Positions 1,165-35,462 of a stretch of 36,268 nucleotides of DNA are shown here, piece by piece (position 1 is the stretch's first letter; the number at the start of each line of letters is the position of its first letter). A program made the position numbers and the translations under genes. The notes under the pieces are model-generated. The model saw only the letters and a program-made list of their open reading frames with translations, searched no databases and was not told the DNA's origin. Source of the stretch: Opitutia bacterium (lineage in GTDB: Bacteria; Verrucomicrobiota; Verrucomicrobiia; Opitutales; T3Sed10-336); contig PWMU01000012.1 of the NCBI GenBank assembly GCA_003558065.1, positions 1-36,268 of the forward strand, written 5' to 3'.

Positions 1165-1174
1165 GGTGATTAAA

Positions 1175-1199
1175 GGAAAACACCCCGGTCGCACCGGGG
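1175..1199 (-). terminator. Rho-independent terminator-like hairpin between the pectate-lyase-like gene and the partial GH115 gene
   Basis: Read on the minus strand, a perfect 7-bp GC stem (CCCCGGT, loop GCG, ACCGGGG; bases 1199-1183) is followed by TGTTTTCC. It lies 34 bases after the stop of the pectate-lyase-like gene and ends just before the start codon at 1164, so it could terminate the upstream gene or act as an attenuator for the next one. Confidence 0.6.
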
Positions 1200-1233
1200 C
1201 GAGCAAAAGGGATGGAAAACCGGGCCGTAGGCT

Positions 1234-4092
1234 TCAATCCTGGATAAAACGCAGACGAAAGAATTGCGGCTCCGCCGCCGGTTCCGTCAGCGGGGCCCGG
1301 CCCCGGTAGAGCAGCCGGTGTTCGTCCAGCGATTCGGATTCCCACGAGGCAACGTCCATGGGCTCCCAGTTTTCCAGATCGGGCGAACGCTCCAACAGGA
1401 ACCACGTGCGGGGAGTAAGGTTCGTGTGCCACGGCACCGCGACATCGAGTTCGTTGCCGGTTACGGTTAACCGGATCAACGGCTCGGCCGGCGCGTGGGC
1501 CGGGATTCCGGTGGCATAAGCGATCAGGTTGGGGATTCCGTGTCCGAACCGGTCCCGGTCGGGTTCCCGCTCGGCCGGAGGGATACCGGTTGCCTCGGCC
1601 CATTGGGCATAGGTTTGATAGTCCCGGTAGGAAAGAAGCAGTTGCGGACGCAACGCCGCCGAAGGATTCCCGGTGGACCCGTATTTCATCAACGGGCTGG
1701 AGTTGTCCTGGTCCAGAATGAGCAGGCGGAGGCTGACGGTTGAACCCGGCGGGGGTTCGGTAAAGGCCGGCGAGATATCGATCTCGACCGGACCGGTGGC
1801 GCCGTCACCGGTCCAGTTGCCCACCGCCTGTCCCGCCGTCGGGCGGTTGTTCCAGGTCAGCGTGTCCTGGGACCAGGAGTCGCTCTCGAGGAGGATCACC
1901 CGCCCGATGTGGGGTGTCGAGTCCTCCGTCTTGTGCAGCAGCAGCGACGCGCCCTTTACTGTTTCCGGGTCGATGGCGAGGGCGGAGAGGTCGAACTTCA
2001 TAAAACCTTCCCGCGTGTTCGTCTGACCCTGTTCCTTGATCCAGATTTCCGGCCGCGATCCGTAATTGGTATCCGGATTGGCGACGTGAACAAAGGCATC
2101 ATCGGTCGGAGAGAGGTTTCCGGTGACGATCTCGGCTGTTGAGGGGAAGGGGGCCAGCGATACGAGCAGGTCCAGTGTTTCCGCCGCTTCCGGATGCCCG
2201 GGCAACTGCGCCGCCGCCCGTACCCGATAGGTCCCCGGCCGACTCCCGACAAACCGCGGGTTCGCGGTCGTGGCGTCGTCCAGACGGGCGTCGCCGGGGC
2301 CGTCGACCACCTCCCACTGGTAACCGAGGTCGCCGGGGCCGCCGGCCAGATTCGCACCCACTTCGGCCGCCACCCTCAGGTCGACGCCGGTGCGCGGGAG
2401 TTCGGTTGCGGGGGAACTCATGAGGTGAAGCCGCACCGAGTTGTGGCGACGGTCGAGCTGGTCCACGTAGAGGGATTGAGGCGTGAGGGTGGCGCCCGTT
2501 CCCACGCCTTCCACGTGATCGTCGGGTGAGGTCTGCGGCCGGGAGCTCGTGTACGTAACACCGCTGCGCGGGCCCTGGGTTCCGATGATGTAGCCGTAAC
2601 GGGCCTGTTCACTTCGCACGACCGCGCCGCCGCTGCCTTCACCCCGCGTATTCCAGAAGGTGGTGTGGGCGGCGGTGATGTTGTGCTGCGGTATGGAGCC
2701 GAACGGCCGGTAGCGCGCCTCGTAATGACTGTCGATGGCCAGGTTCCCGTCGAGGAGGTTGGAATGACTGAAATGCATGTGATGGTCGCTGCCGGCACTG
2801 CCCGCGGTGCCGCTGGCCGCCCAGCGGGTAAACTGGTCGGTCGAGTTGTGAATGGCATTGCCGGTCGCTCCCATGTGGGAGAAGACAAAGCCGTGACGGT
2901 TGTGCGAGGCGACGCAGTTTGTCAGGAGATTGTCGCCGGCGTGGGTGAGCCGGTAATTGTAACCGTTACCCCCGCCGCCCCCGTATTGCACGCGCTGCAT
3001 GCTGACGGTGTCCAGAGTGACGAAGCGGGCGTGGAGCAGCCGCACGCCGTTGCTCAGCTTGTGCGCGTTCAACGAGTTTCCTTGCGGACGAAAGGACGAG
3101 ACCCGCCGTATCCAGCAATTCTCGACGCGGCGCAGGGCGATGAGGTAGGAGCCGTGGACGTCGTATGCCGCCGTGCCGCTGTTGGTGTAATCGTTCTGTT
3201 CCCATCCGCTTCCGGGGTGTTCGATGTTGCCGATGGAGAAATCCTCCAGGCCCACTTCGACAATCGCGGGTCCGGCGCGGTGCACGCGGGCGCCATCCCG
3301 CCTTTTCAAGGCGTACCGGATCGGTGCGTCCACCAGGAGCGTGTGGGCCGCGTCATCGACCGCGAGGACCGTCCGCGAATAAACCAGGCCCGGGAAATTG
3401 CCCGCATACCCGGCCCAGTTGGGTTCGTTGTGCTCGGCGATCCAATCCTCCGTAATCGTGTTCCGGATCATGATCCGGTCGCCCTGAGAAAATCCGCTGG
3501 CATCGCGCACCGGGATGACCTGGGTCGGCCCCATAAGGTCGCGCGTCAGCGGATTTCCGAAACCGTGGTCGGCGAACCACGACGCACTGGAGGGTCCCGT
3601 CACTTTGATGACCCGTTTTCCGCGCATGTCGTACGACGTGTTGACGAGGTAGGTTTCGTGCCTCCCCGCACCCCGCAGGATCACGTTCGAATGGGTGATC
3701 TGCAGCGCCCAGTTGCTGCCGGCCGGAGGCTCGATCGCGTAGGTTCCGGCCGGCATATAAACCACGCCGCCTCCCGACCTCACGGCGTCGTTGATCGCAC
3801 TCTGGATCGCGCTCGTGCTGTCAGCTACGCCGCCGGGGTCGGCGCCGTAGGCGGTCACGTCGAATAGCGGACCTTCGACGTCCGGAATGGGCGCGTCGCC
3901 GCCCCGGTAACCCGCGCGTGAATAATCCTGCATGATTCTGTCGGTGTAAAAATCGGAATCCGCCGCCGGGGGGGACCAGTCTTCCGGGTACAGTTCGCTC
4001 CGCCACGATGCGGACACCGCGGGCGTCGCCACCAGACCTGCGGCTGAGGCCGCCAGAAGAACGAGGAGTGAGGCGGGAAAGCGGGTGTGCAT
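1234..4092 (-). CDS. Secreted pectate-lyase-superfamily beta-helix protein with PKD-like, DNRLRE/CBM96-like and C-terminal tail domains
   Basis: A 952-residue protein when started at the ATG at 4092; the frame stays open to a GTG at 4182, but MHTRFPASLLVLLAASAAG is a typical signal peptide start (ATG at 4104 is an alternative). Mature protein: 'FDVTAYGADPGG.ADSTSAIQSAI' at about residues 77-100 is the hallmark of the pectate lyase 3 / right-handed beta-helix superfamily, and the helix extends to about residue 560. A PKD/Ig-like domain follows (about 575-650), then a DNRLRE or CBM96-like domain (about 657-824: TDDAFVHVANPDTNYGS, WSQDTLTWNNRP). The last 128 residues form a tail ending FFRLRFIQD, related to the tails of three other proteins in this window. 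Known members include lyases and hydrolases acting on uronic-acid polymers, and CBM96 domains bind alginate; which activity applies here is not visible. It is divergent from the beta-helix gene at 4208. Confidence 0.85.
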   Translation of the reverse strand: MHTRFPASLLVLLAASAAGLVATPAVSASWRSELYPEDWSPPAADSDFYTDRIMQDYSRAGYRGGDAPIPDVEGPLFDVTAYGADPGGVADSTSAIQSAINDAVRSGGGVVYMPAGTYAIEPPAGSNWALQITHSNVILRGAGRHETYLVNTSYDMRGKRVIKVTGPSSASWFADHGFGNPLTRDLMGPTQVIPVRDASGFSQGDRIMIRNTITEDWIAEHNEPNWAGYAGNFPGLVYSRTVLAVDDAAHTLLVDAPIRYALKRRDGARVHRAGPAIVEVGLEDFSIGNIEHPGSGWEQNDYTNSGTAAYDVHGSYLIALRRVENCWIRRVSSFRPQGNSLNAHKLSNGVRLLHARFVTLDTVSMQRVQYGGGGGNGYNYRLTHAGDNLLTNCVASHNRHGFVFSHMGATGNAIHNSTDQFTRWAASGTAGSAGSDHHMHFSHSNLLDGNLAIDSHYEARYRPFGSIPQHNITAAHTTFWNTRGEGSGGAVVRSEQARYGYIIGTQGPRSGVTYTSSRPQTSPDDHVEGVGTGATLTPQSLYVDQLDRRHNSVRLHLMSSPATELPRTGVDLRVAAEVGANLAGGPGDLGYQWEVVDGPGDARLDDATTANPRFVGSRPGTYRVRAAAQLPGHPEAAETLDLLVSLAPFPSTAEIVTGNLSPTDDAFVHVANPDTNYGSRPEIWIKEQGQTNTREGFMKFDLSALAIDPETVKGASLLLHKTEDSTPHIGRVILLESDSWSQDTLTWNNRPTAGQAVGNWTGDGATGPVEIDISPAFTEPPPGSTVSLRLLILDQDNSSPLMKYGSTGNPSAALRPQLLLSYRDYQTYAQWAEATGIPPAEREPDRDRFGHGIPNLIAYATGIPAHAPAEPLIRLTVTGNELDVAVPWHTNLTPRTWFLLERSPDLENWEPMDVASWESESLDEHRLLYRGRAPLTEPAAEPQFFRLRFIQD

Positions 4093-4207
4093 GGGGCCGA
4101 TCATCGCCCGCGGGAGGTGAAACGGCAACTCTGTTTTACGGGTTAGCCCGGTTCCGCGGAAGCTGTCGTTTACGCCATGCACGGTTTATGATGGGCACGA
4201 GGGGATT

Positions 4208-11011: not shown

Positions 11012-14000
11012 TCAATTTGCCAGCCGTACCCTGAGCCGCATAAAGCGGGAACCGGCGGAATCGTTGCCGGTATCGGCCACGTTTTCAATCACGATCGGAT
11101 CCTCGCCGCCGGGATAGGGATGGTCGGTGCTGTTCCAGATGGATTCCCATTGCTGCAGGTCGGAGGAGGCATCGACCAGGTAGGTGATTTCCTCAGCCGC
11201 CGCTTTGGCTCGGGTGAACTGGAACGTCTTTCCGTCCTTGGAGCGTACCAGGACGGGGGCGGAGGCCGACGCGGGAACCAGGGGATGACCGCCCGCGGCG
11301 AATTCGAGCAGGTTGTCGATTCCGTCCCGATCGGGATCGGCCAGCGGGCCGCTGATCGAGTTATCGCGCAGTTCCTCAAGGGAAAAAAACTGCCCGCGCC
11401 AGGCGCCGAAGCGGGGAGGGAGCGGTCCGGCGGAAGCCTGGGTCAGCGCGAGGTCGCTCACGCTTTCGCCGTCGGCGCGAAACAGGGCGCTGACGCGGTT
11501 CATGCTGCTGCCACCCAGCCGGGAAAGATTCCGGTAGTCGGGAATGGTAATCGTTTCCACCTGTTCCCAGGCACCCGAATCGTCATCGAATTGATCAAAG
11601 CGCAGCTTCAGCGAATCCGTTTCGGATCGGGTATATACGATGAGCCGGTACTGGCGGTAATCGGTCGTGCTCGTTTTCAAGCCGGACATGCCGGTCTGGT
11701 ATTCCGTGTCCCCGAACAGATTTCCATTGTCGGAAATCCCCAGCGTGGAGCCCCCATCGGTTGCGCCGATACGCACGCCGGCGTAGGGCCGGGCTCCGTC
11801 GCCGTCGGCCTGAAAACGGAAAACGGTCCGATTGTCGGTGGCGTCGCCGCCGAATCGCATCCGAAAATACAATACGGTCGTGGTGTCGTCCCCGAGACTC
11901 AGTTCCAGGGGTGCGTCGAGGACGTTCGACTGGTCGAAAATCAACCACGAACCCGCCCAGTTGTCGTTGCGGGTGCTGGCGAGTACGCCGTCGGCGATGT
12001 AAGTCCAGCTTCCGAAAGACCAACCGTCGGGACCGTAAAAATCGGTTTCATAAAGCACGGCGTGGGCGGGAAGGTCGTCGAAAAACGCGTCGGTCCCCGC
12101 TTCCTCGCCGGGATCGGGATCGTCGGGCGCGACCGCTTCACGCGCCTCGCGAACCGCGTCGCGGCGGGTACGGAAGTTGAAGACCCCCTCGGGGTGGTAC
12201 CAGCTTCTGAACACCCCGTGCTGGGCGCCGTCGAGGCTCGATACCATCTCTTCGGCCGCCTCGTCCGCCTTTACGGCGTGCGCAACCAGGTCCTCGTTGC
12301 GTTCGTCGACGCGCGCCCGAAGGGCTTGGCCCAGGTGCAGCACGGTTTCGGTGGCGTGCCGGAGAAAATAGGCCTGTACGCGGAGATTGTCGTTGAAGAA
12401 GGGCCGGGCCCTTTCCGGCAGCGCGTCAAGCAGCGCGTCGGCGTCGGCGGTCAGCTCCTCCAGTTCGACGGCCGATTCCCCGAGACCGGCAATGAGGGCG
12501 TCGACTTCCGTCTCGACCCCGTGGAAGGACGGCTCGATGCGGAACCAGTCGCCGCTCCAGAAAGGATCGAGGTCCTGGCTCGGATTTCGGGAGGCTTTGA
12601 GGCGCCCGGTGAGGATGTCGATCGAACGCCCGAGGCGAAGGTCCTGGAAAATATACTGGCGCTCGAATCCGGGGAGGTCCGGTTCGCGCTGGCGCCAGTG
12701 GGCCTCGAAGAGGCGGCGGTAAAGGTCGGCCGCGTCGTCGGCGTATTCGGAACCGAAATACGTCTCACAAAAACGGTCGAGAAACACGTCGGAATCGTAG
12801 GCGTCGAAATCCCACAACAGCCGCGCGTTGGCGTCGAGTTCCAGCACGTGTTCGCGGATGTTGCCGGCGTTGACCACGGAGTAGGCGAGGGGAATCCCGC
12901 TGCGTCCGGCCACGGTCCGGTAATTGCGTTCCATTTTCCAAGGCCCCTCGGCCTGGACCATGTGGGAACCGGTTGAGTTGAACTGGAAATTCATGTAATA
13001 GCCAATGGGTTGCTCCGGGGGAATCTCCTGGGTCAGCACATCCTGGGCGGGAAAGTGGTCGCGACGGGCGGCGACAAAGTTCCAGGTCAGGTTATCCCGT
13101 TCGGGCAGCTCCAGGTGGCCGTCCGCGACGAGGCCGGTCTTTTCGTTGTAGAGGAGGGTTCGCATCGGCAGGTCGTCGCGGCCGGTTACGGTTTCCAAAA
13201 GCTCGATCTGGCTGTCCATCATGGAGCGGATAACCTCGCCGCGGTCTTCGTCGGAATCGGGCGCATCCGGAAACGCCTCCCAGAACGCGTGGTCGCGCTT
13301 GCCCCGGAAACCGATCATCCAGACCGTCTCGAGATCGTTTTCCAGGACGGTTTCAATATGATATTCCCAAAACTCCAGGAGCTTGTCCTTGTTGGCCAGG
13401 GTGGCTTCGGGCGGGCTTTGGTTTCGTATGTTCTCCCAGTAGTTGTTCCAGCGGTTGAACCCGATTCCCAGCCAGGCGCCGAGGGGTGACTGGTGGCTCG
13501 TGCTCACCGCCAGGCCGTATTCCTTCGCCATCAGGGCATCGGAAGCGGCCTCGTAGGGAGCATTGAATCCGGGGGCGGTCAGCGCGTTCAACTCCAGCAC
13601 GTTGAGCTTTAGCCGCATCATCGTTTCCGCGTAGGCCCGAAAGTTCTCCTCGGACCGTTGTCTCCAGGGGGAGAGGCGGCGTTGGTCGTTCGGGAACCAG
13701 GCGCGCCACTCGACTTCCGGCGGATCGAAATGGCTGTGAAAGGCTTCCGAAAGGGCGATCCGTTCGCGGCTTTCGGGCGGTCGCGAGGCCCAGAACCACA
13801 GGGGGGAGACCCCGAGGACTTCTTCGGAGAAGGTGTAGATCGCGTAGATGGTGCCGCGCATGTCACTGCCGTGCAAAACGATGTGGGGCGTTCCGTCGAC
13901 CTCGCGCACGTAGACCGCATGCGACTCGCGACCCTGTACGTCGCCGGAAAGCTCCAGCCCGGGCCAATCGCTCTCCGGGCCCGCCACGACCAGCACGGGG

Positions 14001-16384: not shown

Positions 16385-16385
16385 G

Positions 16386-17180
16386 TCAATTGCGCATGAC
16401 AACGTTGTTCATGTTCTCGTCGACATACCCGAGAAATCCGATTTGCCGCAATTCCTGCCGCCCCATGGTGCGCACGCTTCCGTCGAGAAAGGCCATGTTC
16501 GCGCTGCCGCCGTGACGCATCTGAATCCCGTCAAGGCCGGAAGGTTGCCAGCCCCGGATCTGGTAGCGTTGGCTTCCGTTTCCGGGAGAGTTGTAGGGAT
16601 CGTAGTCGCCGGGCATAACGCTGTCCACGAAAGTGAAGTAGCGGGACGGATCGCGGACGGCGTTGGCGTTGAGGCGGTGGCCCGCGCCGACAACGGATCC
16701 TGCCTCGGCATAATCCGTACCGCCGACAAGGGGCGGTGCCGTCGTGATCATGTTCATGCCGTAGACGCGGAAGTTGTGTCGTCCAGGCGCCTCCTCCCGG
16801 ATCTGTTCCCATGAATAGGGATGTTCCGAGGGGCAAACCGTGACGGCGCGGTTGTCCAGGAAACCATCGTTCTCAAGTCTTTGAGCCCAATGGGGTACAT
16901 CTTCAGAGCCATCACCCGATGCGCTGTGCACATCGATGCGGCCCTCGTTGTCTTCGAGAAACAGATTCAAGGCGAGGGTCAGATCCCGCAGATTGCCGAT
17001 GCAACGCGAGGCGCGGGCGCTGTCCCGGACCGCGCTGACAACCGGAATCAGGATTGCCGCCAGAATGCCGATGATGGCAATCACCGTGAGGAGCTCGATC
17101 AACGTGAAAGCGCGGTTTTGCGCCATTCGGGTTGCCTTCCGGCCGGGGGCGAATCCGGTTCGCTGGTGTAGGGTGTTCAT
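16386..17180 (-). CDS. Type II secretion/type IV pilin-like pseudopilin with H-X9-DG motif
   Basis: Contains the class III leader and helix '[23 protein letters not shown]', with Ala before the processed Phe and Glu at +5, so it should be cut and methylated by a prepilin peptidase. Near the C-terminus '[12 protein letters not shown]' fits the prepilin processing-associated H-X9-DG motif that is common in Verrucomicrobiota, Planctomycetes and Lentisphaerae. The start is uncertain: ATGs lie at 17195, 17180 and 17126, the last with a GGAAGG site 8 bases upstream. I prefer 17180 because the long leader [12 protein letters not shown] resembles [12 protein letters not shown] of the second pseudopilin at 26512. 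It heads the operon with two GH115 genes and is divergent from a LacI regulator. The role is likely a minor pseudopilus or surface component; a direct link to glycan handling is inferred from context only. Confidence 0.88.
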
Positions 17181-17644
17181 CGTTGGAGTTATCATGGAGT
17201 TGTTATTTGAGCTTTAGTCGAAGTTGTATTGTCGGGGTCCCTGGAAAACCGCCTGGAACCGGAGGGTGCTGTTAATCATATCCCTGATTGATGAAAAGCG
17301 CGATTGGTGTCATTGCATTTCCCTGTGAAAACTCGCCGCCCTCCGGGACGGAGGAAGACGGTTTGCGGATTTCATCTTGCACGGGTACTACCGTTTTTGA
17401 GTTGACGTGATGCAGGCCGTGTGGACAGAACGACGGCTTTCAAAGCCAACGCTAGGTGAATGGGCAAACCTTGCCAAGCGCGCTCTTATTGTAACTGTAC
17501 AATTGACCCGGAGATTCTTTCCGGGCCCCGTCCTTCGCTTGATTTCTTATCCCAGTACTGTTTCAGCTTGATTTTTAATTACTCTAACGCTTCTCTCTTC
17601 CACCTTGACGTTGCCGGGTTCGTTGCGGTGTAATCAAGCTCTTA
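17181..17644. promoter_or_regulatory. 464-base divergent regulatory region between pseudopilin-GH115 operon and LacI regulator
   Basis: No gene is seen. It holds a perfect inverted repeat ATTGTA-ACTG-TACAAT at 17488-17503, a smaller one GGCAA-ACC-TTGCC at 17463-17475, and a hairpin CCTCCG-GGA-CGGAGG at 17340-17354 in the leader of the pseudopilin. The motif GCTTGATT occurs at 17537 and 17566 and, in the opposite orientation, as AATCAAGC at 17632. The TATGAT at 17274-17279 (minus strand) may be a -10 box without a good -35. These are candidate operators for the adjacent LacI protein. Confidence 0.45.
17605..17634 (+). promoter_or_regulatory. Predicted promoter of the LacI regulator gene
   Basis: TTGACG at 17605-17610 and TGTAAT at 17629-17634 are separated by 18 bases. 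The expected transcription start (about 17641) falls only a few bases before the ATG at 17645 and no Shine-Dalgarno sequence is present, so the message may be leaderless. The -10 box overlaps the inverted AATCAAGC half-site, which would suit self-repression. Confidence 0.4.
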
Positions 17645-18954: not shown

Positions 18955-20847
18955 ATGAAAAACAGAAAGTTTCTTCCGTTGCTCTGCATGATTCCGGTGA
19001 TTTCCTTCGGAACTCCGGGCGCCGCTGAATCCGTAACGACCGCTTTTGCCGATGACCTGCCGAACCAGGTCCTGCTCTACGAAACCGACTTCAACGACAG
19101 CACGGGCTGGGCTTTTGGGAGCCACACCTACATGTTCGACGGTGCGCTTGCCAGCACCCGGGACGACGGCTGGGCCGGCTCCTGGCTGATTTTCGACCAG
19201 GAGTCCGTTCTCGACGGTCCGTTGAACCTCGAGGTGGACGAGGAGACTACGACCGTCCTGTACTTCAGTGAACGGTTCGGCGGCGATACCGGCGACAACC
19301 GAACGGTTTTCCGCTTCCAGGGGCTGGGGGACGGTGACTTTCCCTACTTGGGCGTTCGTGTCGGGGTGGAGGATTCAGGGACCACGCTCGGGATCTCCGA
19401 CAACGGGAATTTGTTCGGGGAAACTGACTACCGGACCGGCATGTCAGGGGTGACCACCAGCACGGAGGAGCCGCTGGACTACCGGCTGGTTCTCCATGTC
19501 GTGGCGGAGACCGGGACACTTACCGTCAGTTTCGAACAGTACGACGCCGAAGGCGAGGCATGGGAAACCGTGGAGAGCATCGAAATCGCCGATTACAGCG
19601 CTGACTCCCGCCTCGGCAGCAATCTGGTCGATCGAATCAGCGTGCTGTTCCGCACTTCCGGAGAAAGGGTGACGGGCATGGCGATCACGCAATCGGCGCC
19701 TCCCCCGCCGCCGACCTTTGCCGGTTGGCAGGAGCGGCATTTCACCACGGAGGAGCTTGACGACGAAGCGGTGAGCGGTCCGTTTGCCGATCCCGACGGA
19801 GACGGCATGCCCAACCTCCTCAAATACGCGCTCGGCGGCAATCCCTGGACTGCGAGTAAGGAGATCGCCCCGCGGATGGGGCTGGCCGGGGCCGCGGGTG
19901 ATCAGTACCTGGCTTTGAGTTTTATCCCCGCCGATCCCGCTCCGCTGGATCTCGACTACCGCGTGGAGGTCTCGAGCGACCTGATCAACTGGACGGAAGA
20001 GGTCCGGGAATTGGCTTTTCTGCTGGACGAATTCGTGGTGGGCGACGGGACGGGGATCAGCTACCAGACCGGTGACATCAACGGGCAGAGCGGCGGCGCC
20101 AACTGGGCCCCCGACACCGAATGGAGTCTCGGCGGCAGCGGGGGAAACCGGCGGCACATTTCGGTGGGCGACTACATCCAGTTCGAGAAATTCAACGTGG
20201 ACCACGAAAACAACCAGATCATCCTCTCCCGCGAATACGCGTCGCCGGGAATCGACCGGTACGATATTCATTTCCGCGTCGCGTTCGGGGAACTCGGCGG
20301 CATTCGCCTGCTGGAGGGAGAGCCCACCAGTTCAGGCGGAAACCGCGCCAGCGACAAGTTTGCCATTTTTGACGGGGGCGGAACGTCGAACGCCGTGACG
20401 ACCGGAGTGCCGTGGTACATCGAGGCCGCCGGGGGGTACTGGCATGCGTTGCCCGGCACCGGCAACGGCGGCAACTACGGCGAGCCGGTCCAGTTGGCGC
20501 CGCTGGTCGAGGACGAGACGTACGAAATCAGCGTGTCTCTTTTCGGCGACGCCTCGTGGGAGGCAACCGTCAGCATGGTGAATGCCGAGGAATCCTTCTC
20601 GTCAGGGAGGCTTCCTTTCATCGGGGACAACGAGCAGGTGCACAATTGGCTGCATATTCGCTCGCAGTATTCGGATACCGCCGGCTCGGATTATAATATC
20701 CGCCTGCACAGCGCCTCCATCACCAGTCCCTTCGAGTTGGCCGAAGGGGAGGATGCGGGCCGGGCATCGATTTTCCGGGACACCGTTTCAAGCGGCGAGG
20801 AGGGTCGTCGCTTCATGCGTCTCCGGGTCACGCTTGACGAGGAGTGA
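18955..20847 (+). CDS. Secreted LamG-like protein with split C-terminal tail (630 aa)
   Basis: The frame is open far upstream, but MKNRKFLPLLCMIPVISFGTPGAAES from the ATG at 18955 is a clear signal peptide, so I start there. Residues 33-248 are a LamG-like beta-sandwich (TGWAFGSHTYMFDGALASTRDDGWAG) closely matching residues 723-940 of the GH115 protein at 11012. Residues 253-352 begin the shared tail (WQERHFTTEELDDEAVSGPFADPDGDGMPNLLKYALG), which is interrupted at about 353-596 by a second beta-rich domain (ISVGDYIQFEKFNVD, YDIHFRVAFGELGG) before the tail resumes and ends with RFMRLRVTL. No catalytic motif was recognised. It probably binds a glycan or forms part of the cell surface. It is next to the LacI regulator, on the same strand. 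Confidence 0.82.
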   Translation: MKNRKFLPLLCMIPVISFGTPGAAESVTTAFADDLPNQVLLYETDFNDSTGWAFGSHTYMFDGALASTRDDGWAGSWLIFDQESVLDGPLNLEVDEETTTVLYFSERFGGDTGDNRTVFRFQGLGDGDFPYLGVRVGVEDSGTTLGISDNGNLFGETDYRTGMSGVTTSTEEPLDYRLVLHVVAETGTLTVSFEQYDAEGEAWETVESIEIADYSADSRLGSNLVDRISVLFRTSGERVTGMAITQSAPPPPPTFAGWQERHFTTEELDDEAVSGPFADPDGDGMPNLLKYALGGNPWTASKEIAPRMGLAGAAGDQYLALSFIPADPAPLDLDYRVEVSSDLINWTEEVRELAFLLDEFVVGDGTGISYQTGDINGQSGGANWAPDTEWSLGGSGGNRRHISVGDYIQFEKFNVDHENNQIILSREYASPGIDRYDIHFRVAFGELGGIRLLEGEPTSSGGNRASDKFAIFDGGGTSNAVTTGVPWYIEAAGGYWHALPGTGNGGNYGEPVQLAPLVEDETYEISVSLFGDASWEATVSMVNAEESFSSGRLPFIGDNEQVHNWLHIRSQYSDTAGSDYNIRLHSASITSPFELAEGEDAGRASIFRDTVSSGEEGRRFMRLRVTLDEE

Positions 20848-26337: not shown

Positions 26338-26511
26338 CGAAGTGTTCGCAAAGCTTCGACAGGTTCGCCTGTCCGGTCAAGAAAAGTATATCCAGTTTTT
26401 AGGCTCGATCACCGTGATAGCAATTGCGCGGCTCGGCAATGATGTTTAATTTCCTCCACAACAGTTCAGAAACTGCCCTGAAAAGAAGTTCGGCATCCAA
26501 GTTTGAAGATG
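26338..26511. promoter_or_regulatory. Divergent region between the GntR-type regulator and pseudopilin 2
   Basis: Contains a hairpin GACAGG-TTCG-CCTGTC with a UUCG loop (26358-26373) in the leader of the regulator and a short inverted repeat ATCAC-C-GTGAT (26408-26418) near the middle, which is a candidate operator for the adjacent GntR-type protein. Confidence 0.4.
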
Positions 26512-27249
26512 ATGAATGAAATGCATTTGAGAAAAGGTTTTGGTCCTGTGTCAGCACGAACTCCTGTTTCGTATGGCTTGTACGGTCGCCGTTGCGGATT
26601 TACTCTGATCGAGCTTCTGACGGTTATTGCCATTATCGGGATTCTGGCGGCGATTCTGATTCCAGTGCTGCGATCGGTTCGCGAGAGCGCCCGGACGGCC
26701 CAATGTCAAAGTAATCTCCGGCAATCGGCAACCGCTATACTGTTGATGATGAACGATGATGAGGGTCGTCTCTTCACGCACCAGGGGGGAGCGGGATCCG
26801 ATGGGCTGAACTGGAGCCAGCGGTTGATCGATTGGGGATACCTCGACAACGAAGTCGCCGCCGAAGTGGTGCGTTGTCCGTCGCACCCGCCCGATTATTA
26901 CCATTCCTGGAGTACCTATGGGTTGAATATGATTGGAGATGCAGGAGAGTCGGTTTCAGGGGAGGGCAATACGCGCTACCGGCTTAACCTGAACCTGATC
27001 CGGGACCCAAGTCACTATTTTCTCCTCGTCGATTCGCATGCTGCCGCGACAGAGCGTCAACGGATGCGGATCACCGGCATTTGGGCTTCCCATGCCGACG
27101 GAGTTCACACGCGCCACAACAACCGTGCCAATATGGCTTTCGCCGACGGGCATGTGGAGGCGGTCGGGCCGAAGCGGCTGGCGATTCTGGGATTTGGAAG
27201 TTATTTCGACGAGGGCTTAACGGCCAGAGCCGTGCCGGATATTGATTAG
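26512..27249 (+). CDS. Second pseudopilin with H-X9-DG motif
   Basis: A 245-residue prepilin-like protein with '[23 protein letters not shown]' (Gly before the cleaved Phe, Glu at +5) and '[12 protein letters not shown]' as the H-X9-DG motif. ATGs at 26509, 26512 and 26521 are all possible starts; I chose 26512 because the leader [12 protein letters not shown] resembles that of the pseudopilin at 17180. No clear ribosome binding site is seen. The 27 bases after the helix ([18 protein letters not shown]) match the usual continuation in this family. It is divergent from the GntR-type regulator and 35 bases ahead of the PEP-CTERM gene, so they are probably co-transcribed. It should be an exported, membrane-anchored filament or secretion component. 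Confidence 0.88.
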
Positions 27250-27284: not shown

Positions 27285-28106
27285 ATGAACCCGCTTCCCA
27301 ACAATAGAAAACCGTTTCGAAATAAATTATTGTGGCGCGCTCTGTTGTCGAGTGTGACGATCTCCTTACTCTGCTTCGGAGGAAAAGCAACCGGATATTC
27401 GGCCATCGTGACCTTTCAGGATGATTTTGAAGGTCATACGCCCGGTGAGGCTCCCGGTGCTCCGTGGACTGCGGTTAGCGACGGCCCCGGCTCAGGGAGT
27501 GTCACCGTGATTCAGGACGAAAATGACCTCTTCGGCAAAGGAACGACCAATCAGATCCTCGAATACCGCAAAGACGGCACGGACATTGCCCAGAATCTGG
27601 TTACCGAGGAAACCTTTTCCGCCGAAGTGGCGAGGATCCGCTTCAATTTCTTTCAGCCTGAGGATGAGTTCGACGAGCACAGTTGGATCATCCTGTATGC
27701 GGGATCCCGCTCCACCGGCAACCGCGCCCAGGTAATGAATTTCGGGGCCGACGGCGACACGATCGGAAGCTCGGCGATCTATGACCGCGGGGTGGTCAAT
27801 CAATTGGAGTTGATCGTCAATAACAGTAATGATCCGTTCAGTTATTCGAACGGACAAACCGTTGAACCGGGAACGGTCGATATTTGGATCAACGAAGTAC
27901 TGGCGGAGGAGGGCTTCTCGGCGCAAAACAACCAGCGAGGCGCTATAACCACCTTCGAATTCAACACCTCGAGTAGCCGGCAACAAGCCTTTTTCATTGA
28001 TGACATGGTGATTGTTCCGGAGCCCCGCGCGGTCGGTGCGGTTTTTGGAGTCGTCGCTCTGGGGGCGGTCTTCGTCCTTCGGCGCCGGTCTTCGAGAAGA
28101 CTGTGA
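27285..28106 (+). CDS. PEP-CTERM surface protein with one copy of a ~200-residue domain
   Basis: A 273-residue protein with an AAGGAAAG ribosome binding site, a signal peptide, one beta-rich domain (about 45-243) and a C-terminal PEP-CTERM tail: Val-Pro-Glu-Pro at 244-247, a hydrophobic stretch (AVGAVFGVVALGAVFVL) and a basic end (RRRSSRRL). The PEP-CTERM tail is normally cut by an exosortase, so this should be a surface or extracellular protein. The domain (DDFEGHTPGEAPGAPW, FQPEDEFDEHSWIILYAGSRS, FEFNTSSSRQQAFFIDD) resembles carbohydrate-binding or LamG-like beta-sandwiches but I do not recognise a named family. The next gene carries three more copies, and the signal peptide and leader are also similar, so the two genes are related by duplication. 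Confidence 0.87.
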   Translation: MNPLPNNRKPFRNKLLWRALLSSVTISLLCFGGKATGYSAIVTFQDDFEGHTPGEAPGAPWTAVSDGPGSGSVTVIQDENDLFGKGTTNQILEYRKDGTDIAQNLVTEETFSAEVARIRFNFFQPEDEFDEHSWIILYAGSRSTGNRAQVMNFGADGDTIGSSAIYDRGVVNQLELIVNNSNDPFSYSNGQTVEPGTVDIWINEVLAEEGFSAQNNQRGAITTFEFNTSSSRQQAFFIDDMVIVPEPRAVGAVFGVVALGAVFVLRRRSSRRL

Positions 28107-28286
28107 GTGTCAACGGAAACCATCTTTGTCCGGTTCGAACGTTTTTTTATCCCGGGGCAGCACGATCGATCGTTCGATTCAGCACGACGGGGTGTATGGA
28201 GGTGGCGGAAATTTTCGAAACGAGACGCCGCTTGGTACTTTGACTCTAATCGCTAACGTTACTCAAACCTGGAACCAAAAAAGAGA

Positions 28287-30776
28287 ATGAAACCGTTTTT
28301 TCTGAATACGAAACCGTTTGCTAAGGCCACCCTTTTGCGTGCTTTATTGCCGTGTGTGACAATCCCGTTGCTGAGTCTTGCAGGAAGTGCGACCGGATTT
28401 GCGTCGGAGGTGGTTTTTTCGGATGACTTCGAAAACCATACGGCCGGCGAAGCGCCCGGCGAGCCGTGGACGGAGGTGGGAGATGGTCCTAATTCGGGGA
28501 GTATTCTGGTGCTCCAGGACGAGGACGATCTTTTTGGGAAAGGGACCGACAACCGGATATTGGAGTATCGCAAGGATCAAACTCATGACGACCTGCCGTC
28601 GGCCCAGAATCTGGTCACCGAGGAAAGTTTTTCCGCCGAAGTCGCGAGTATCCGATTCAGTTTTTATCAACCTGAGGACGAGTTCGACGAGCACAGCTGG
28701 ATCATCCTGTATGCGGGATCCCGTTCCACCGGCAACCGCGCCCAGGTCATCGACTTCGGCGCCGAGGGTGATACGATCGGAACTTCGGCGACCTATGAGC
28801 GCGGAACGGTGAATGAACTGGAACTGATCGTGAATAACGGTGCCGGACCGATTGTTTACGGCGACGGGCAGATCCTGGACGGGGGTGAGACGGATATCTG
28901 GATCAACGGGGAATTGGCCGAGGAGGCTTTCTCCGCGCATAATAATCAAAGAGGTCCCATTTCCACTTTCGAGTTCAACACATCGGGCTCCCGGAAGCAG
29001 GTCTTTTACCTGGATGAGATCGTCATTGAATCATTGGACGTGGAAGCGTTTCGACTTGGCCTGGAAGACGATTTCGAAGGACACACGGTGGGCGAAGCGC
29101 CGGGCGAGCCGTGGACGCAGGTTGTGGACGGACCTTTCTCCGGAAGTGTCCTGGTGCTTCAGGACGAGGACGACCTTTTCGGCAAGGGCCCGGATAACCA
29201 GATCCTCGAGTACCGGAAGGATGGAACCGATCCTGATGAGCCTTCAAACCAGGCACTTATTGCCGAGGAGGCCTTTTCGGCGGAGGTGGCGAGCATCCGG
29301 TTCAGTTTTTACCAGCCCGACGACGAATTCAACGATCACAGTTGGATTATTCTTCATGCGGGATCGCGCTCCACCGGCAACCGTGCCCAGGTCATCAATT
29401 TCGGTGCCGACGGCGACACGATCGGAACTTCCGCGACCTATGAGCGCGGCGTGGTCAACGACGTCGAATTGATCGTCAACAACACGACTTCACCCATCGA
29501 ATACGGCGAGGATGACCAGGTGCTATTCCCGGGCTCTACGGATATCTGGATCAACGGGGAACTCGAAGAGGAAGGCTTTTCATCGCAGAATAACCGATTG
29601 GGAGCCATAACCAGCTTCGAGTTCAATACCTCGGGTGGGCGGCGCCAGGTGTTTTTCGCCGACGATTTCATAATCGAGCCCATTCCGGCGGAAGACGTTC
29701 AGATCCAGATCGCACTTGAAGATGATTTCGAGGGGCATACCGTCGGCGCCGAGCCGGGCGAACCGTGGAACGATGTCCGAACCGGCCCCGGTGCGGGCAG
29801 TATCCTGGTGCTCCCGGACGATGACGACCTCTTCGGGAAAGGAACCGACAATCAGATTCTCGAATACCGAAAAGATATGGATGGCATATCCCAACGCCTT
29901 TTGACCGAAGAAACCTTTTTCGCCGAGGTGGCGAGTATACGCTTCAACTTTTTTCAGCCCGATGACGAATTTGACGAACATGCGTGGCTGATGCTCTATG
30001 CGGGTCCCCGTTCGACCGGTAACCGTGCCCAGGTTTTGAATTTCGGCGAGGATGGTAATAAAATCGCCGAGTTCGGCGGGGATGCTTCGGTGACTTATGA
30101 GCGCGGAGTGCTCAACGAATTGGAGCTCGTCGTCAACAACGGCCATGAACCCTTTACTTATGCTAATGGTCGGACAGTTCAACCGGGGACGCTGGATATC
30201 TGGGTCAATGGGGAGCTTGAAGGTGAAGGCTTCTCGGCAAGCAATAACCGCCGTGGCGGGATTACCGGCTTCGAGTTCAACACTTCGAGTTCGCGAACAC
30301 AGGTCTTTTATCTCGATGATTTTGTAGTCGAGCCCTTGGCTGAGGTTGCGCCCGAAGCGACGTTCGCGGCCTGGCGCGACGAACACTTCACCGACGACGA
30401 ACTGGGTGACGAGGAAATCAGCGGCCCACTGGCCGATTTCAGCGGTGACGGAGTCGCCAACCTGGTTAAATATGCCCTCGGCTTGAATCCGCGCGTGGCT
30501 TCCCTCGAAGGCTTGCCGGCCACAGCGATCCAATCCCTCGAAGTCGACGACGAAACCGACGCGTTCCTGACGCTGACCTTCGACCGTCCGGTCGATCGCG
30601 TGGATTTGACTTACGAGGTTACCGCAGCCGCGGAGCTGCCCGAGTGGACCGTGCAGGCGGTTCAGGTTTCGGTGACCGAGAACGGAAACGGAACCGTTAC
30701 CGAACTCTGGCGGGACTCCCAGCCGATCGATCAGGCAAACAGGCGTTTCATGCGGCTGGAGGTGACGTTGGACTAG
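28287..30776 (+). CDS. Secreted protein with three tandem copies of the same domain and the shared C-terminal tail (829 aa)
   Basis: After a signal peptide similar to that of the previous gene (MKPFFLNTKPFAKATLLRALL) come three copies of the domain found once in the PEP-CTERM protein, at about residues 44-248, 258-465 and 476-683. Each has 'DDFEGHT.GEAPGEPW', 'DDLFGKG..NQILEYRKD', 'FFQPDDEFDEH', 'GSRSTGNRAQV' and 'FEFNTS'. In place of PEP-CTERM, residues 690-829 are the tail shared with three other proteins here (WRDEHFTDDELGDEEISGPL, GDGVANLVKYALG, ending RFMRLEVTLD). It is probably an extracellular glycan-binding or adhesion protein with avidity gained from repetition. No catalytic signature was seen. 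It is on the same strand behind the PEP-CTERM gene, with 180 bases between. Confidence 0.85.
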   Translation: MKPFFLNTKPFAKATLLRALLPCVTIPLLSLAGSATGFASEVVFSDDFENHTAGEAPGEPWTEVGDGPNSGSILVLQDEDDLFGKGTDNRILEYRKDQTHDDLPSAQNLVTEESFSAEVASIRFSFYQPEDEFDEHSWIILYAGSRSTGNRAQVIDFGAEGDTIGTSATYERGTVNELELIVNNGAGPIVYGDGQILDGGETDIWINGELAEEAFSAHNNQRGPISTFEFNTSGSRKQVFYLDEIVIESLDVEAFRLGLEDDFEGHTVGEAPGEPWTQVVDGPFSGSVLVLQDEDDLFGKGPDNQILEYRKDGTDPDEPSNQALIAEEAFSAEVASIRFSFYQPDDEFNDHSWIILHAGSRSTGNRAQVINFGADGDTIGTSATYERGVVNDVELIVNNTTSPIEYGEDDQVLFPGSTDIWINGELEEEGFSSQNNRLGAITSFEFNTSGGRRQVFFADDFIIEPIPAEDVQIQIALEDDFEGHTVGAEPGEPWNDVRTGPGAGSILVLPDDDDLFGKGTDNQILEYRKDMDGISQRLLTEETFFAEVASIRFNFFQPDDEFDEHAWLMLYAGPRSTGNRAQVLNFGEDGNKIAEFGGDASVTYERGVLNELELVVNNGHEPFTYANGRTVQPGTLDIWVNGELEGEGFSASNNRRGGITGFEFNTSSSRTQVFYLDDFVVEPLAEVAPEATFAAWRDEHFTDDELGDEEISGPLADFSGDGVANLVKYALGLNPRVASLEGLPATAIQSLEVDDETDAFLTLTFDRPVDRVDLTYEVTAAAELPEWTVQAVQVSVTENGNGTVTELWRDSQPIDQANRRFMRLEVTLD
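28416..30335 (+). repeat. Three in-frame tandem domain repeats of about 205 residues
   Basis: Repeat 1 lies at about 28416-29030, repeat 2 at 29058-29681 and repeat 3 at 29712-30335, with short linkers. Repeats 1 and 2 are the most alike at protein level; repeat 3 has a small insertion (NKIAEFGGDASV). The fourth related copy is in the PEP-CTERM gene at about 27417-28013. Confidence 0.85.
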
Positions 30777-31109
30777 CCGGGCGTAGCCTCGAGCCCGAAG
30801 TAGCGCACGCATCTTGAGGCGCGCGCACCGGGACGAAATCCCGGCTCGCCGTGGGCTGCGTGCAGAATTCACGATTCTGCCGGACATCGAGCGAAGTCCC
30901 GTGCCTGCCGGGAGAAACGTAAGCTGCATATCGGCGGCACATTTCGAAAAACTCGAATCAGATTTAAGCTCGCTTCCGGTGGCTCGGCAGCCAAAGAATG
31001 AATTTTTATCGGGAGCGCATCGTTTCGCCGGTAAGAGGTCCCGTGGGGTTGCCGTTTCAAGGGATGCCGCAGTCGTCCGGAATATTCGAGTCCGATGTGG
31101 GAAAGAATC
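30777..31109. other. 333-base intergenic region with two hairpins and a repeat-like stretch
   Basis: No convincing gene. It holds a hairpin CCGGGA-CGAAA-TCCCGG (30828-30844), which may end the preceding transcript although it lacks a T-run, and GCAGAAT-TCACG-ATTCTGC (30862-30880). The stretch around 30801-30827 (GTAGCGCACGCATCTTG) resembles a repeat that, read on the minus strand, encodes 'RAPQDACAT', a peptide I recall from many mis-annotated repeat ORFs in Verrucomicrobiota and Planctomycetota. Confidence 0.4.
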
Positions 31110-33485
31110 ATGAAGATTTATTGGCGTGTGGTAACTCTGGTCGCAGTGACGATGCTCGTGACCCTCGGTCCGGCCAAGGCGGGTCATTACTATTTGGCAC
31201 CGGATGGCGACGACAGCAACGCAGGCACCCGCGAGGCGCCGTGGGAGAGCCTGGAGAAGGCGTCGGCGACCGCGCGGGCCGGGGATACGATCGTGCTGCT
31301 TCCGGGCAGGTACCCGGGGCGGTTGCGCCCGGTCGACAGCGGCACCGCCGACGCTCCTATCGTCTTCCGCGCCGAACCGCGCATGGGCGCGACACTCACC
31401 GGGCCGGGCGGCGACCGAGCGATCGTCTTGGAGGATCTGAAGCATATCAGCCTGGAGGGCCTGCACGTGGAGCCGGAGATCTCCGGCGTGGGCTGGCTCA
31501 CGATGCGCAACTGTTCACAGGTAACGGTGGAGGATTGCCGAATGGAAAACTCCACCGCCGGCCTGGCGGCCCAGATCGAGGACTCCGAAGACATACGTCT
31601 GCTTAACAGCGTCTTTCAAAAGCAGTTGGGCGGCGTCAACATGTTCCGCATTGTCCGTTGCACGCGCATACTCTTCGAGGGGAACGTCATCAGTCGCGCC
31701 GGACACTCCCCTCTCCAGCTCAGGCCGGACAACGCCACAAGCTACGTCGTGATGCGAGGCAATGTTTTCCACGCCGCGTGGGGGCGCAACTTCGAGCACT
31801 TTGGCACCCACAACGTGCTCTTCGAGCACAACATCGTAACCCATGCCTTCAACAGCGGCCGCTCGGGGAGCGCGAACGCGAAGTTCGCCACCACGCATGG
31901 AATCTTTCGCTTCAACAGGGTTTTCCGCAACCCTCACGGGCCGATTCACCTGTATCCGTTCCGCGACGTCTGGCTCGATAGAATACGCCTTTACAACAAC
32001 GTCTTCGACGACAACGGCCATTACGGCATCGCCGTCCGCAGTTCACAGGAGCAGACAAGAGATCTCGTCTTCGCCAACAACATCTTCAGCCGGAACGACC
32101 CGCATGGCATGGAACGCCAGATACAGCTCAGAGGCGGGAGCCCTGGACAAGTCCGCATGGTGCGCAACGCGTTCGCCGGTACGCAGCGGGGTTTGCCCCT
32201 GGTGCATGACTATGGTGACTCGTTCACGGTCGAGGCGCTGCAAGAGGCAGCCGTGCAGGCGGAGCACGGAGCGCGCTATGAAGGCAACATGGACGCGGAT
32301 CCCGGCTTTGTCGACGCGGAGACCTACGACCACGCGCTGCGCGAGGACAGCCCGCTGAGGGATGCGGGCGTGCCGCTAACACGCGCGGTAGGCGCCGGTG
32401 AGAGCGCGCGGCTTGCGGTCGAAGACGCTGCGCCCTTCTACGACGGTTTTGGCATTGAGGGCGAGAAGGGCGACCTGATCGCCGTGGGCGCTCCGGACCG
32501 GAGGGCACGGGTGGTCGAGGTCGATCATGACGCTAACACGCTGCTGCTCGACCGGGAGGTAAGGTGGAGTGAGGGCGACCCGGTAAGTTTGCCCTGGTCG
32601 GGCGAGGCGCCCGATATGGGCGTCTACGAAAATGGCGGTGACGGGCGCGTGGGGGTGCAGGTGGTCGTTGAGCCGTTCGAGGTGCGTCCGGGCGAGGAGG
32701 TAACCATGCGCGCCGTAATCCACGGTGACGCTCGGCCCGAGCGTATCCGCTGGTGGCTGGGCGACGGGAGTGTGGCGGAGGGCGGCGAGATCACGCACCG
32801 CTACGATGAGGAGCACGACTACGCGATCCGCGTGCAAGTGGTCGACACCGAGGGCCGGACACATTATGGACCCGGTTACGTGTGGGTGGCCGAGCCAACC
32901 GATCCGTCCGCTCCGCTGATTCACTCCACGTGGGACCCCGACGACGACACGGCTTGGTGGCTGTGGAAGAGTTACGGGTATCCGGGACCTGCGGCTTTTG
33001 TAGACATCGTCGAGGGCGGCGTGCGCCATGCCGGCAGTTCCGCGTACATGCCCGAGGGCTACGAGCCGCCCGGCCCGGGCACCAACTTCCGGCACGTGTT
33101 CGCGCCCGAGGACCGCGGCGGCCTGCCGGCACGTGTTCATCCGGATGGTTGGGACATCGACCTCTACCCGGAGGTCTTTGTGCGCTATCGGGTCAGCGAG
33201 GGAACGCCGGTGGCGTTGTCGTTGAAGCCTTTCGGACGGGCGCCATTGCTGGTGGCGCTCACTCCCGCAGGGGAGTCGGACCTCTCGTCGGTCGCGGACC
33301 ACGTTCTGCATGACGATGCCGAGTGGCATGAACTGGACTTCGATGTACGGAAGGTACGCGGGGTTTATCCGGACCTTCAGGTGTTGGAGGGATTGTATTT
33401 TCTCAGCTCGCCGCAGGATGCGGTGAGGGAGGGGCAATGGTACGACCTCGACGAGGTGCTCATCCGGCCTGCTGCGAATGAATAA
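31110..33485 (+). CDS. Second secreted beta-helix protein with PKD domain (791 aa)
   Basis: Started at the ATG at 31110, which follows GGGAAAG and begins a good signal peptide (MKIYWRVVTLVAVTMLVTLG, Ala-Lys-Ala cleavage site); an upstream ATG at 31095 is less likely. 'YYLAPDGDDSNAGTREAPWESLEKA' opens a DUF1565-like parallel beta-helix, with 'HNIV', 'NNVF' and 'NNIF' turns. The closing block (PFYDGFGIEGEKGDLIAVGAP, PWSGEAPDMGVYE), the PKD domain (IRWWLGDGSVAEGG, DYAIRVQVVDTEG) and the C-terminus all match the protein at 4208, its paralogue. The beta-propeller gene follows after 21 bases, so they may be co-transcribed. Function is probably glycan cleavage or binding; no catalytic residues could be assigned. 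Confidence 0.86.
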   Translation: MKIYWRVVTLVAVTMLVTLGPAKAGHYYLAPDGDDSNAGTREAPWESLEKASATARAGDTIVLLPGRYPGRLRPVDSGTADAPIVFRAEPRMGATLTGPGGDRAIVLEDLKHISLEGLHVEPEISGVGWLTMRNCSQVTVEDCRMENSTAGLAAQIEDSEDIRLLNSVFQKQLGGVNMFRIVRCTRILFEGNVISRAGHSPLQLRPDNATSYVVMRGNVFHAAWGRNFEHFGTHNVLFEHNIVTHAFNSGRSGSANAKFATTHGIFRFNRVFRNPHGPIHLYPFRDVWLDRIRLYNNVFDDNGHYGIAVRSSQEQTRDLVFANNIFSRNDPHGMERQIQLRGGSPGQVRMVRNAFAGTQRGLPLVHDYGDSFTVEALQEAAVQAEHGARYEGNMDADPGFVDAETYDHALREDSPLRDAGVPLTRAVGAGESARLAVEDAAPFYDGFGIEGEKGDLIAVGAPDRRARVVEVDHDANTLLLDREVRWSEGDPVSLPWSGEAPDMGVYENGGDGRVGVQVVVEPFEVRPGEEVTMRAVIHGDARPERIRWWLGDGSVAEGGEITHRYDEEHDYAIRVQVVDTEGRTHYGPGYVWVAEPTDPSAPLIHSTWDPDDDTAWWLWKSYGYPGPAAFVDIVEGGVRHAGSSAYMPEGYEPPGPGTNFRHVFAPEDRGGLPARVHPDGWDIDLYPEVFVRYRVSEGTPVALSLKPFGRAPLLVALTPAGESDLSSVADHVLHDDAEWHELDFDVRKVRGVYPDLQVLEGLYFLSSPQDAVREGQWYDLDEVLIRPAANE

Positions 33486-33506: not shown

Positions 33507-35462
33507 ATGAAAAACATGAAATCTTCCGGAATACGAATCCTACTCACCGCGACGCTCGTTTTTGCCGCGATTCCGTCGGTCGCCGACCGGCTTCCCGCAG
33601 GCTTTGAAGATCACGGTCCCGCCGCTCCCACTGGGCAGGAAACCTTTGGGGGCAGCGCCTTTGCCACGGTGGACGCCGAAGGCAGCCGTCTTGTATTCAT
33701 GAAACTGTGGGCGGGCGGGCAAGGCTACTACCTTTTTATCGATGCCGAAACCGGGGAGACCGAACAGATTCATCCCGGGATCAACGGCGGCGGGGGCTGG
33801 CCGCCTTTGTTGACTGATGAAAACAAGGTTTATGATACCATGGGGGCGTGGTTGATGGAGATCGACGTGCCGGCGCGCGAGGTGCGCCGTGTCGGGCGCC
33901 TGCCCTCGGGGCGGAGCCTCGGGCTGGGAAACACCGTCGATGAGAACGGGATCGTCTACGCGGGAATTTTCCCCAGCGGAAACCTGGTGTCGTATGATCC
34001 GGCAACCGAAGACTTCACCGATCACGGGCGCCTGGTCGAAGAGGACTGGAATCAGTATTTGCGGCCGATGGTGACCGACGGCGAAGGCTGGGTTTACATG
34101 GGTATCGGCCAGAAACTGGCCCAGGTGCTGGGGTACCATCCTGCAAGCGGCGAAACCCGCGCCTATGTGCCGGAGGACGAACGCGAAAGCGGGGCGGGAG
34201 AGGTGCGTCTGGGCGCCGACGGACACGTGTACGGCAACGCGCCGGGATGGAGCTGGCACCGGCTTTCGGGGGGTGAAGCGACGCCGGTCGACGAACCGGC
34301 GGCCGCCTCCTCGAGCCGGGAACGCTACACCCGTCCGAGGACCGCGGAGGGCAACAGGTTTCCGGACGGTTCCCGTTTGATGGGGATCGATTTGGTCAGA
34401 CGGACGATCACGATTCTGGATACGGACGCCGAAGAACCCCGGGAGATTCGTTTCGATTACGACAGTCCGGGGGTGCCCGTTTACTCGATGGTGGCGGGGC
34501 CGGACGGGAACATTTACGGCGCGACCGGGAATCCTTGCCACCTCTGGCGTTTGCAGCCCGATACGGGAGAAATGGACGATTGGCGGGTAGGCGGTGGCCA
34601 CCTCAATCAGCTTGTGCTCCAGAATGGAAAAATTTACGGAGGAAAATACAGCCAGGGCTCCATTTATGAATTCGATCCCTCGAATCTGTTTCGCGACGAG
34701 GAGAAAACCAGGATACGATGGAGAAGTGTTCAGGAGGGAAGTTACGGCTTTCGCGGGGATCCCGACATGGTCGGGCGGCCCTATGCGATGCTGGCCCATC
34801 CCGATGGCAGGCATGTGGTCATGGGCGGCAACCCGGCACGGGTGGAGATCGGCGGCGGGCTGCTGATCGTCGACATCGAGGACGAAAAGACCACGGCCCT
34901 GCTGCCCGAAGACTTGATTCCCGACCAGGGAGTCATGGCCCTGGCCGCGTTGCCGGGCGGCGACCTGATCGTCGGCAGCACCACGGCCGCCGCAACGGCG
35001 GGTACCTCCGGGGCGAGCGAGGCCTTGATCTACCGTCTCGACTGGGATACCCGTAAAGTGGTCGGCACGTGGAAACCGGACCCGGCACCGGGCTCCATCC
35101 GGGACCTGATCGTTGCCGGGGACGGGCTGGTATTTGGACTGGCGACCGGGAACCGTTTTTTCGTCTTCGATCCCGCGAGCGGCGAGTTTGTTCATGACGA
35201 AGAGGTGACCGAATACGGCGGGCTGACAGGGGGACAGGCGCCCAGGAGCATGGCCCTCGGTCCCGGCGGTAACCTCTACGTGCTGTTTCGCGACGCGATC
35301 GCCCGGATTGATCCCGAAACGTTCGAGCACCGCGAAGTCGCCCGGCCCGGCACGCCGATTAACTCGGGCATCGTTATTCAAGATGACCGTTTGTACTTTA
35401 TCGGGGGCGGACGGCTGCGTCTCTACAGCTACGAGTTGAACCAACAGTCCGGTCCGGATTGA
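33507..35462 (+). CDS. Secreted beta-propeller protein
   Basis: A 651-residue protein with a signal peptide (MKNMKSSGIRILLTATLVFAAIPSVA). The body is a series of blade-like repeats in which a short strand plus 'D.ETGE', 'DPATEDF', 'QPDTGEMDDW', 'DPASGEF' or 'DPETFEH' follows 'GxDGxxY' turns (GADGHVYGNA, GPDGNIYGATG, GPGGNLYVLF). This fits NHL, SMP-30 or similar six- to eight-bladed propellers. No catalytic signature or metal site was identified, so it could be a lyase, a lactonase-like enzyme or a binding protein. It lies 21 bases behind the beta-helix gene and 45 bases before the hydrolase, which suggests one transcript. Confidence 0.82.
   Translation: MKNMKSSGIRILLTATLVFAAIPSVADRLPAGFEDHGPAAPTGQETFGGSAFATVDAEGSRLVFMKLWAGGQGYYLFIDAETGETEQIHPGINGGGGWPPLLTDENKVYDTMGAWLMEIDVPAREVRRVGRLPSGRSLGLGNTVDENGIVYAGIFPSGNLVSYDPATEDFTDHGRLVEEDWNQYLRPMVTDGEGWVYMGIGQKLAQVLGYHPASGETRAYVPEDERESGAGEVRLGADGHVYGNAPGWSWHRLSGGEATPVDEPAAASSSRERYTRPRTAEGNRFPDGSRLMGIDLVRRTITILDTDAEEPREIRFDYDSPGVPVYSMVAGPDGNIYGATGNPCHLWRLQPDTGEMDDWRVGGGHLNQLVLQNGKIYGGKYSQGSIYEFDPSNLFRDEEKTRIRWRSVQEGSYGFRGDPDMVGRPYAMLAHPDGRHVVMGGNPARVEIGGGLLIVDIEDEKTTALLPEDLIPDQGVMALAALPGGDLIVGSTTAAATAGTSGASEALIYRLDWDTRKVVGTWKPDPAPGSIRDLIVAGDGLVFGLATGNRFFVFDPASGEFVHDEEVTEYGGLTGGQAPRSMALGPGGNLYVLFRDAIARIDPETFEHREVARPGTPINSGIVIQDDRLYFIGGGRLRLYSYELNQQSGPD

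Follow-up and report, generated by a model that had tools for sequence, protein, structure and literature searches.

Two neighboring genes in a 36,268-nt stretch of DNA from a soda-lake Verrucomicrobiota bacterium (hereafter, the window) were found to encode paralogous proteins that carry the same domain on different ends, the first (ORF A) on a PEP-CTERM-type tail and the second (ORF B) on a ~130-residue C-terminal domain that closes with the motif RFMRL. The paralogy of the two ORFs and the recurrence of the RFMRL-type tail go far beyond chance, and the swapping of ends on the shared domain is real and recurrent. The tail is probably an alternative end to PEP-CTERM that does not belong to the same pathway, and we give roughly even weight to its being an end module that secreted proteins of a polysaccharide-degradation region carry independently of exosortase, with a plausible role in retention or export.

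The source genome (G000) comprises 4.13 Mb in 197 contigs and is 97% complete. Profile searches of the window identified a PL8 lyase, two GH115 enzymes, a pectate-lyase-like/CBM96 protein and beta-helix/PKD proteins, and the window has the appearance of a region for polysaccharide degradation; it also contains a GntR/LacI-type regulator and two type IV-pilin-like (DUF1559-type) genes at 16389-17195 (- strand) and 26503-27249 (+ strand), the second of which ends 35 bp upstream of ORF A. Among named organisms, the nearest relative found was a MAG from soda-lake sediment, Verrucomicrobia bacterium T3Sed10_319 (PXDC01); the genus PXDC01 is placed in the family T3Sed10-336 (Verruconatronumaceae, Opitutales; PMC13274419). 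Verruconatronum alginivorum is a cultivated member of the same family as the window genome; 67 DUF1559-type pseudopilin genes and a type II system were reported for it, and PEP-CTERM, exosortase and sorting are all unmentioned in that report (PMC13274419). A domain-based search for related loci returned a single locus on a contig of the T3Sed10_319 relative (L206, positions 1-4580), where a sulfatase and a homologue of the gene at 33507-35462 (63% identical) come after a B-like gene with two domains and the tail, so that the neighborhood is partly conserved. Tail alignments offered no stretch conserved enough for a search of this kind.

ORF A (27285..28106, + strand) encodes 273 aa, in which a signal peptide precedes a single domain copy (aa 46-243; 27420..28013) and a PEP-CTERM-type end (28014..28103). 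ORF B (28287..30776) lies on the same strand, 180 bp downstream, and encodes 829 aa consisting of a signal peptide, three copies of the domain (aa 46-247, 28422..29027; aa 261-463, 29067..29675; aa 479-681, 29721..30329) and the RFMRL-type C-terminal domain (30357..30773), with domain boundaries taken from an HMM. BLASTP aligned ORF A with residues 1-247 of ORF B at 68% identity (E=1e-114), and the domain of ORF A, which is ~202 aa in length, with residues 259-467 and 475-683 at 69 and 65% identity, respectively. The signal-peptide regions have 20 of 39 residues in common and are thus related but non-identical. These BLASTP and HMM results bear out the architecture proposed in the initial annotation, namely adjacent paralogues that share their signal-peptide region and a domain, one with a PEP-CTERM end and the other with three domain copies plus the RFMRL tail. 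Scans for promoters and terminators around the pair gave nothing above chance.

No significant family was found for the shared domain in Pfam, NCBIfam or PDB profile searches, and none of 23 copies matched Pfam. The AlphaFold model is mostly beta (pLDDT 52, pTM 0.51), and the best fold matches of this weak model, at a TM of about 0.3, were largely carbohydrate-active proteins bearing jelly rolls or lectin folds, including an Akkermansia sialidase, PL7 alginate lyases and galectins. On this weak evidence a concanavalin A/LamG-like jelly roll is the most likely fold of the domain; the domain resembles Laminin_G_3 and concanavalin A-like modules in its predicted beta content and differs from them in the missing Pfam match and the low TM values. 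Carbohydrate binding by the domain would suit its polysaccharide-degradation neighborhood and is offered here as a guess.

Domain-bearing ORFs were taken from genomes of the order and typed by their ends, with PEP-CTERM called by a pattern rule under which at least one long protein (L162_12520) is a doubtful call. Among the 98 ORFs, 46 ended in PEP-CTERM, 24 in the RFMRL-type tail and 21 otherwise, and seven were cut by contig ends; no typed ORF carried both ends. PEP-CTERM-ended proteins were short, with a median of 290 aa and usually one domain, whereas RFMRL-ended proteins had a median of 868 aa. The RFMRL tail on this domain was confined to the window's own family (24 proteins, vs. 13 with PEP-CTERM), and elsewhere in the order 33 domain proteins were PEP-CTERM-tailed and none RFMRL-tailed. 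On a quick tree of 97 domain copies, the two ends must have been switched at least nine times, a figure that is approximate given multi-domain proteins and weakly supported branches. In this tree the domain of ORF A falls among the copies of ORF B, nearest to copy 3 (support 94). The earlier suggestion that alternative tails occur on the same domain is supported. A separate observation concerns genome G020, in which the domain family is strongly expanded; about 20 mostly single-domain PEP-CTERM paralogues were found there (L144-L155), several of them in tandem, with four in a row at L147.

The tail itself was described in the initial annotation by its last residues, RFMRL. This motif is present on ORF B, but the description understates the tail, which is a whole domain of ~130 residues with RFMRL as just its last strand. 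In ORF B it occupies residues 693-829 (~137 aa), reads W..HF..E..D..SGP.AD..GDG..NL.KYALGL.P ... RRFMRLEV, and ends with RRFMRLEVTLD. An iterative profile seeded with this tail gave a consensus of about 130 residues (FEAWRAEHFTEEELEDEAISGPEADPAGDGVPNLLKYALGLDP... VEYRVEASEDLEEW ... RRFLRLRV) and detected the tail in 70 ORFs of the source genome, a count that rests on sampled loci fetched for their similarity to ORF B. The domain is covered by no family of Pfam or NCBIfam (50 tails, matches at E<=0.1), a PDB profile search returned no significant family, and no description of it was found in the literature; weak similarity to F5/8C, TSP3 and DUF3999 was seen. An AlphaFold model of the tail, built with four sequences, was unusable (pLDDT 41). 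The first third of the tail contains a DP.GDG..N motif reminiscent of the DxDxDG calcium loops of TSP3 and dockerin-type repeats (PF18884 and kin), although just one member matches PF18884, weakly, and the loop is fused in the tail to a second half ending in RFxRLxV.

The tail ended at most nine residues from the C-terminus, mostly three to five, in 58 of the 65 ORFs with a defined end. Its cargo is very diverse: 58 tail proteins included beta-propellers, LamG, CBM96, Golvesin_C, GH115 and BspA-like LRR proteins, and in about 88% of tail proteins a crude hydropathy rule pointed to an N-terminus resembling a signal peptide. Four copies are encoded in the window, namely that of ORF B, one on the GH115 enzyme at 11015-14251 (11015..11416, - strand), one on the pectate-lyase-like/CBM96 protein at 1237-4182 (1237..1614, - strand), and one on the protein at 18955-20844 (19717..20844, + strand), which is split by an insert of about 250 aa before the last strand. 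The GH115 enzyme lies next to a paralogue on the same strand (14270-16402; 55% identical over 709 aligned positions), and the former alone is extended, by a ~230-aa module and the RFMRL tail. In the protein at 18955-20844, too, the tail comes after this module, the two copies of which are 59% identical. Since module and tail extend only one of the two GH115 enzymes and the module recurs elsewhere, the tail was added together with its upstream module, and the tail-free neighbor shows that the catalytic part of the enzyme can do without it.

Some copies do not close a protein. An N-terminal copy was found in L073 (aa 38-149), an internal copy, ahead of an A/B domain, in L035_11805, and tandem copies in L052 and L074. 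Together with the insert-split copy, these do not fit a strict C-terminal sorting signal, which would not tolerate such arrangements, and they count against the mechanistic counterpart of PEP-CTERM that the initial annotation had suggested. They speak instead for a plain structural domain. The main rival to a sorting role is that the tail has a merely structural or ligand-binding function, as a calcium-stabilized, beta-rich and possibly carbohydrate- or matrix-binding module that stands last in multidomain proteins by chance. Its joint movement with an upstream module and its weak similarity to F5/8C, TSP3 and DUF3999 point the same way. The strong C-terminal bias, the great diversity of cargo and the failure to find any domain protein with both ends argue against this reading, which we regard as a real but lesser possibility.

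Whether the tail could be the functional counterpart of PEP-CTERM, in the same or a linked pathway, as the initial annotation had supposed, turns on its features and on its company. The PEP-CTERM/exosortase (EpsH) system is represented by the models TIGR02595 and PF09721 (Haft 2006, PMC1569441). The source genome contains two exosortase matches to PF09721 (149.5 and 79.6 bits) and about 32 PEP-CTERM matches above the cut-off. ORF A has a signal peptide, and its C-terminus (VPEPRAVGAVFGVVALGAVFVLRRRSSRRL; VPEP...VFGVVALGAVFVLRRRSSRR) has the near-invariant PEP motif of the class, followed by a hydrophobic helix and a terminal basic cluster, RRRSSRR. TIGR02595 scored 13.1 bits in a whole-protein scan and 17.7 bits in a genome search (match at 28014-28088), on either side of the 16-bit cut-off, so that the end of ORF A is best classed as a weak, atypical PEP-CTERM. 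The ORF B tail, by comparison, had no TIGR02595 match in the whole-protein scan. The RFMRL-type tail, which is ~130 aa long and predicted to be soluble, lacks all three features of the PEP-CTERM end: the PEP motif, the hydrophobic segment and the basic cluster. As a measure of hydropathy we took the highest 15-residue Kyte-Doolittle mean in the last 35 residues, which separated the two classes completely; PEP-CTERM domain proteins never fell below 1.84, and the 24 RFMRL-type domain proteins never exceeded 0.94. Across all 60 tail proteins measured the maximum was 1.26, below the PEP-CTERM minimum, and none therefore has a transmembrane-like C-terminus. Judged by sequence, the tail is not a PEP-CTERM variant, and the idea of a mechanistic counterpart finds no footing in its features.

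At the level of genomes the two systems do co-occur. Among 132 genomes of the order, 66 had both the tail and an exosortase, seven only the tail, 26 only an exosortase, and 33 neither; among 193 genomes of the phylum that were at least 90% complete, the corresponding numbers were 91, 3, 52, and 47. In the phylum sample an exosortase was thus present in 91 of 94 tail genomes vs. 52 of 99 tail-free genomes, an odds ratio of 27 that ignores the kinship of the genomes. LamG_3, used as a control, was associated with exosortase in the same direction, more weakly (odds ratio 8.7). Co-occurrence was rejected as proof that the tail depends on exosortase, given the control, the non-independence of related genomes and the existence of exceptions. 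It is possible that the tail and exosortase are functionally linked through the same envelope or exopolysaccharide.

The exceptions answer the question, raised with the initial annotation, of whether genomes with the tail and without exosortase exist; they do, but they are few (7 of 73 tail genomes in the order and 3 of 94 in the phylum sample). Neither PF09721 nor TIGR04178 matched in the well-assembled genomes G032 (one contig, 20 tails) and G007 (19 tails), whereas PF09721 matches are present in their congeners G064 and G089. G032 retains three PEP-CTERM matches and G007 one, and these leftovers make a divergent exosortase possible in both. In G230 (one contig, two tails) PF09721 found no exosortase and TIGR04178 gave a sub-threshold match. 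Genomes G057 and G096, which are less complete and have 4 and 13 PEP-CTERM matches, respectively, were left out as evidence. Taken together, the repeated exchange of ends on one domain and a co-occurrence stronger than that of LamG_3 speak for a shared or linked pathway, while the absence of PEP-CTERM features, the tails of G032, G007 and G230, the many exosortase genomes that have no tail, and figures that count related genomes as independent speak against it, and we consider such a counterpart quite unlikely.

The C-terminal secretion domains (CTDs) of the Bacteroidota type IX system (T9SS) are about 100 residues long, divergent, and found on many unrelated cargo proteins. The tail resembles them in size, position, divergence and range of cargo, but a type IX-like domain recognized by an outer-membrane translocon is very improbable, since no Pfam or NCBIfam T9SS CTD model matched (50 tails, E<=0.1), some copies are internal or N-terminal, and SprA_N (PF14349) was unmatched in 19 genomes including the source, in a search whose positive control gave no signal either.

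Under the reading that we favor, an exosortase-independent end module, ORF A and ORF B would have arisen by gene and domain duplication inside the polysaccharide-degradation region, and both would cross the inner membrane by Sec, as their predicted signal peptides suggest. ORF A is predicted to be a substrate of exosortase, and a short VPEP-helix-basic tail would retain the protein in the inner membrane, where exosortase would process it and send it on to the surface. ORF B would be soluble and trivalent, its three domain copies providing avidity, and its end domain would fold in the periplasm or outside. The tail is pictured as a soluble folded module in which a DxxGDG loop, TSP3/dockerin-like and presumably calcium-binding, precedes a second half rich in beta structure, the last strand of which forms the end of the protein. 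Found on dozens of unrelated secreted proteins, it would act independently of exosortase, and its most likely role would be C-terminal retention or outer-membrane export of large secreted proteins, with type II secretion as a possible preceding step. A more specific form of this idea, which we regard as speculative and rather unlikely, is that Verrucomicrobiota have an undescribed route for C-terminal export or surface retention that recognizes the RFMRL domain and runs parallel to exosortase, with large multidomain secreted proteins served by this route and small single-domain ones by exosortase.

The tail family may bear on how Verrucomicrobiota retain or export their large secretomes, and it is large; it occurs in about half of the sampled Verrucomicrobiota genomes, on many polysaccharide-degrading and surface proteins, and lies outside Pfam and NCBIfam. 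Paralogous pairs with and without the tail, such as ORF A and ORF B or the two GH115 enzymes, provide natural controls. The window contains a third paralogous pair in the beta-helix/PKD proteins at 4208-6634 and 31095-33485, which are 41% identical over 755 aligned positions.
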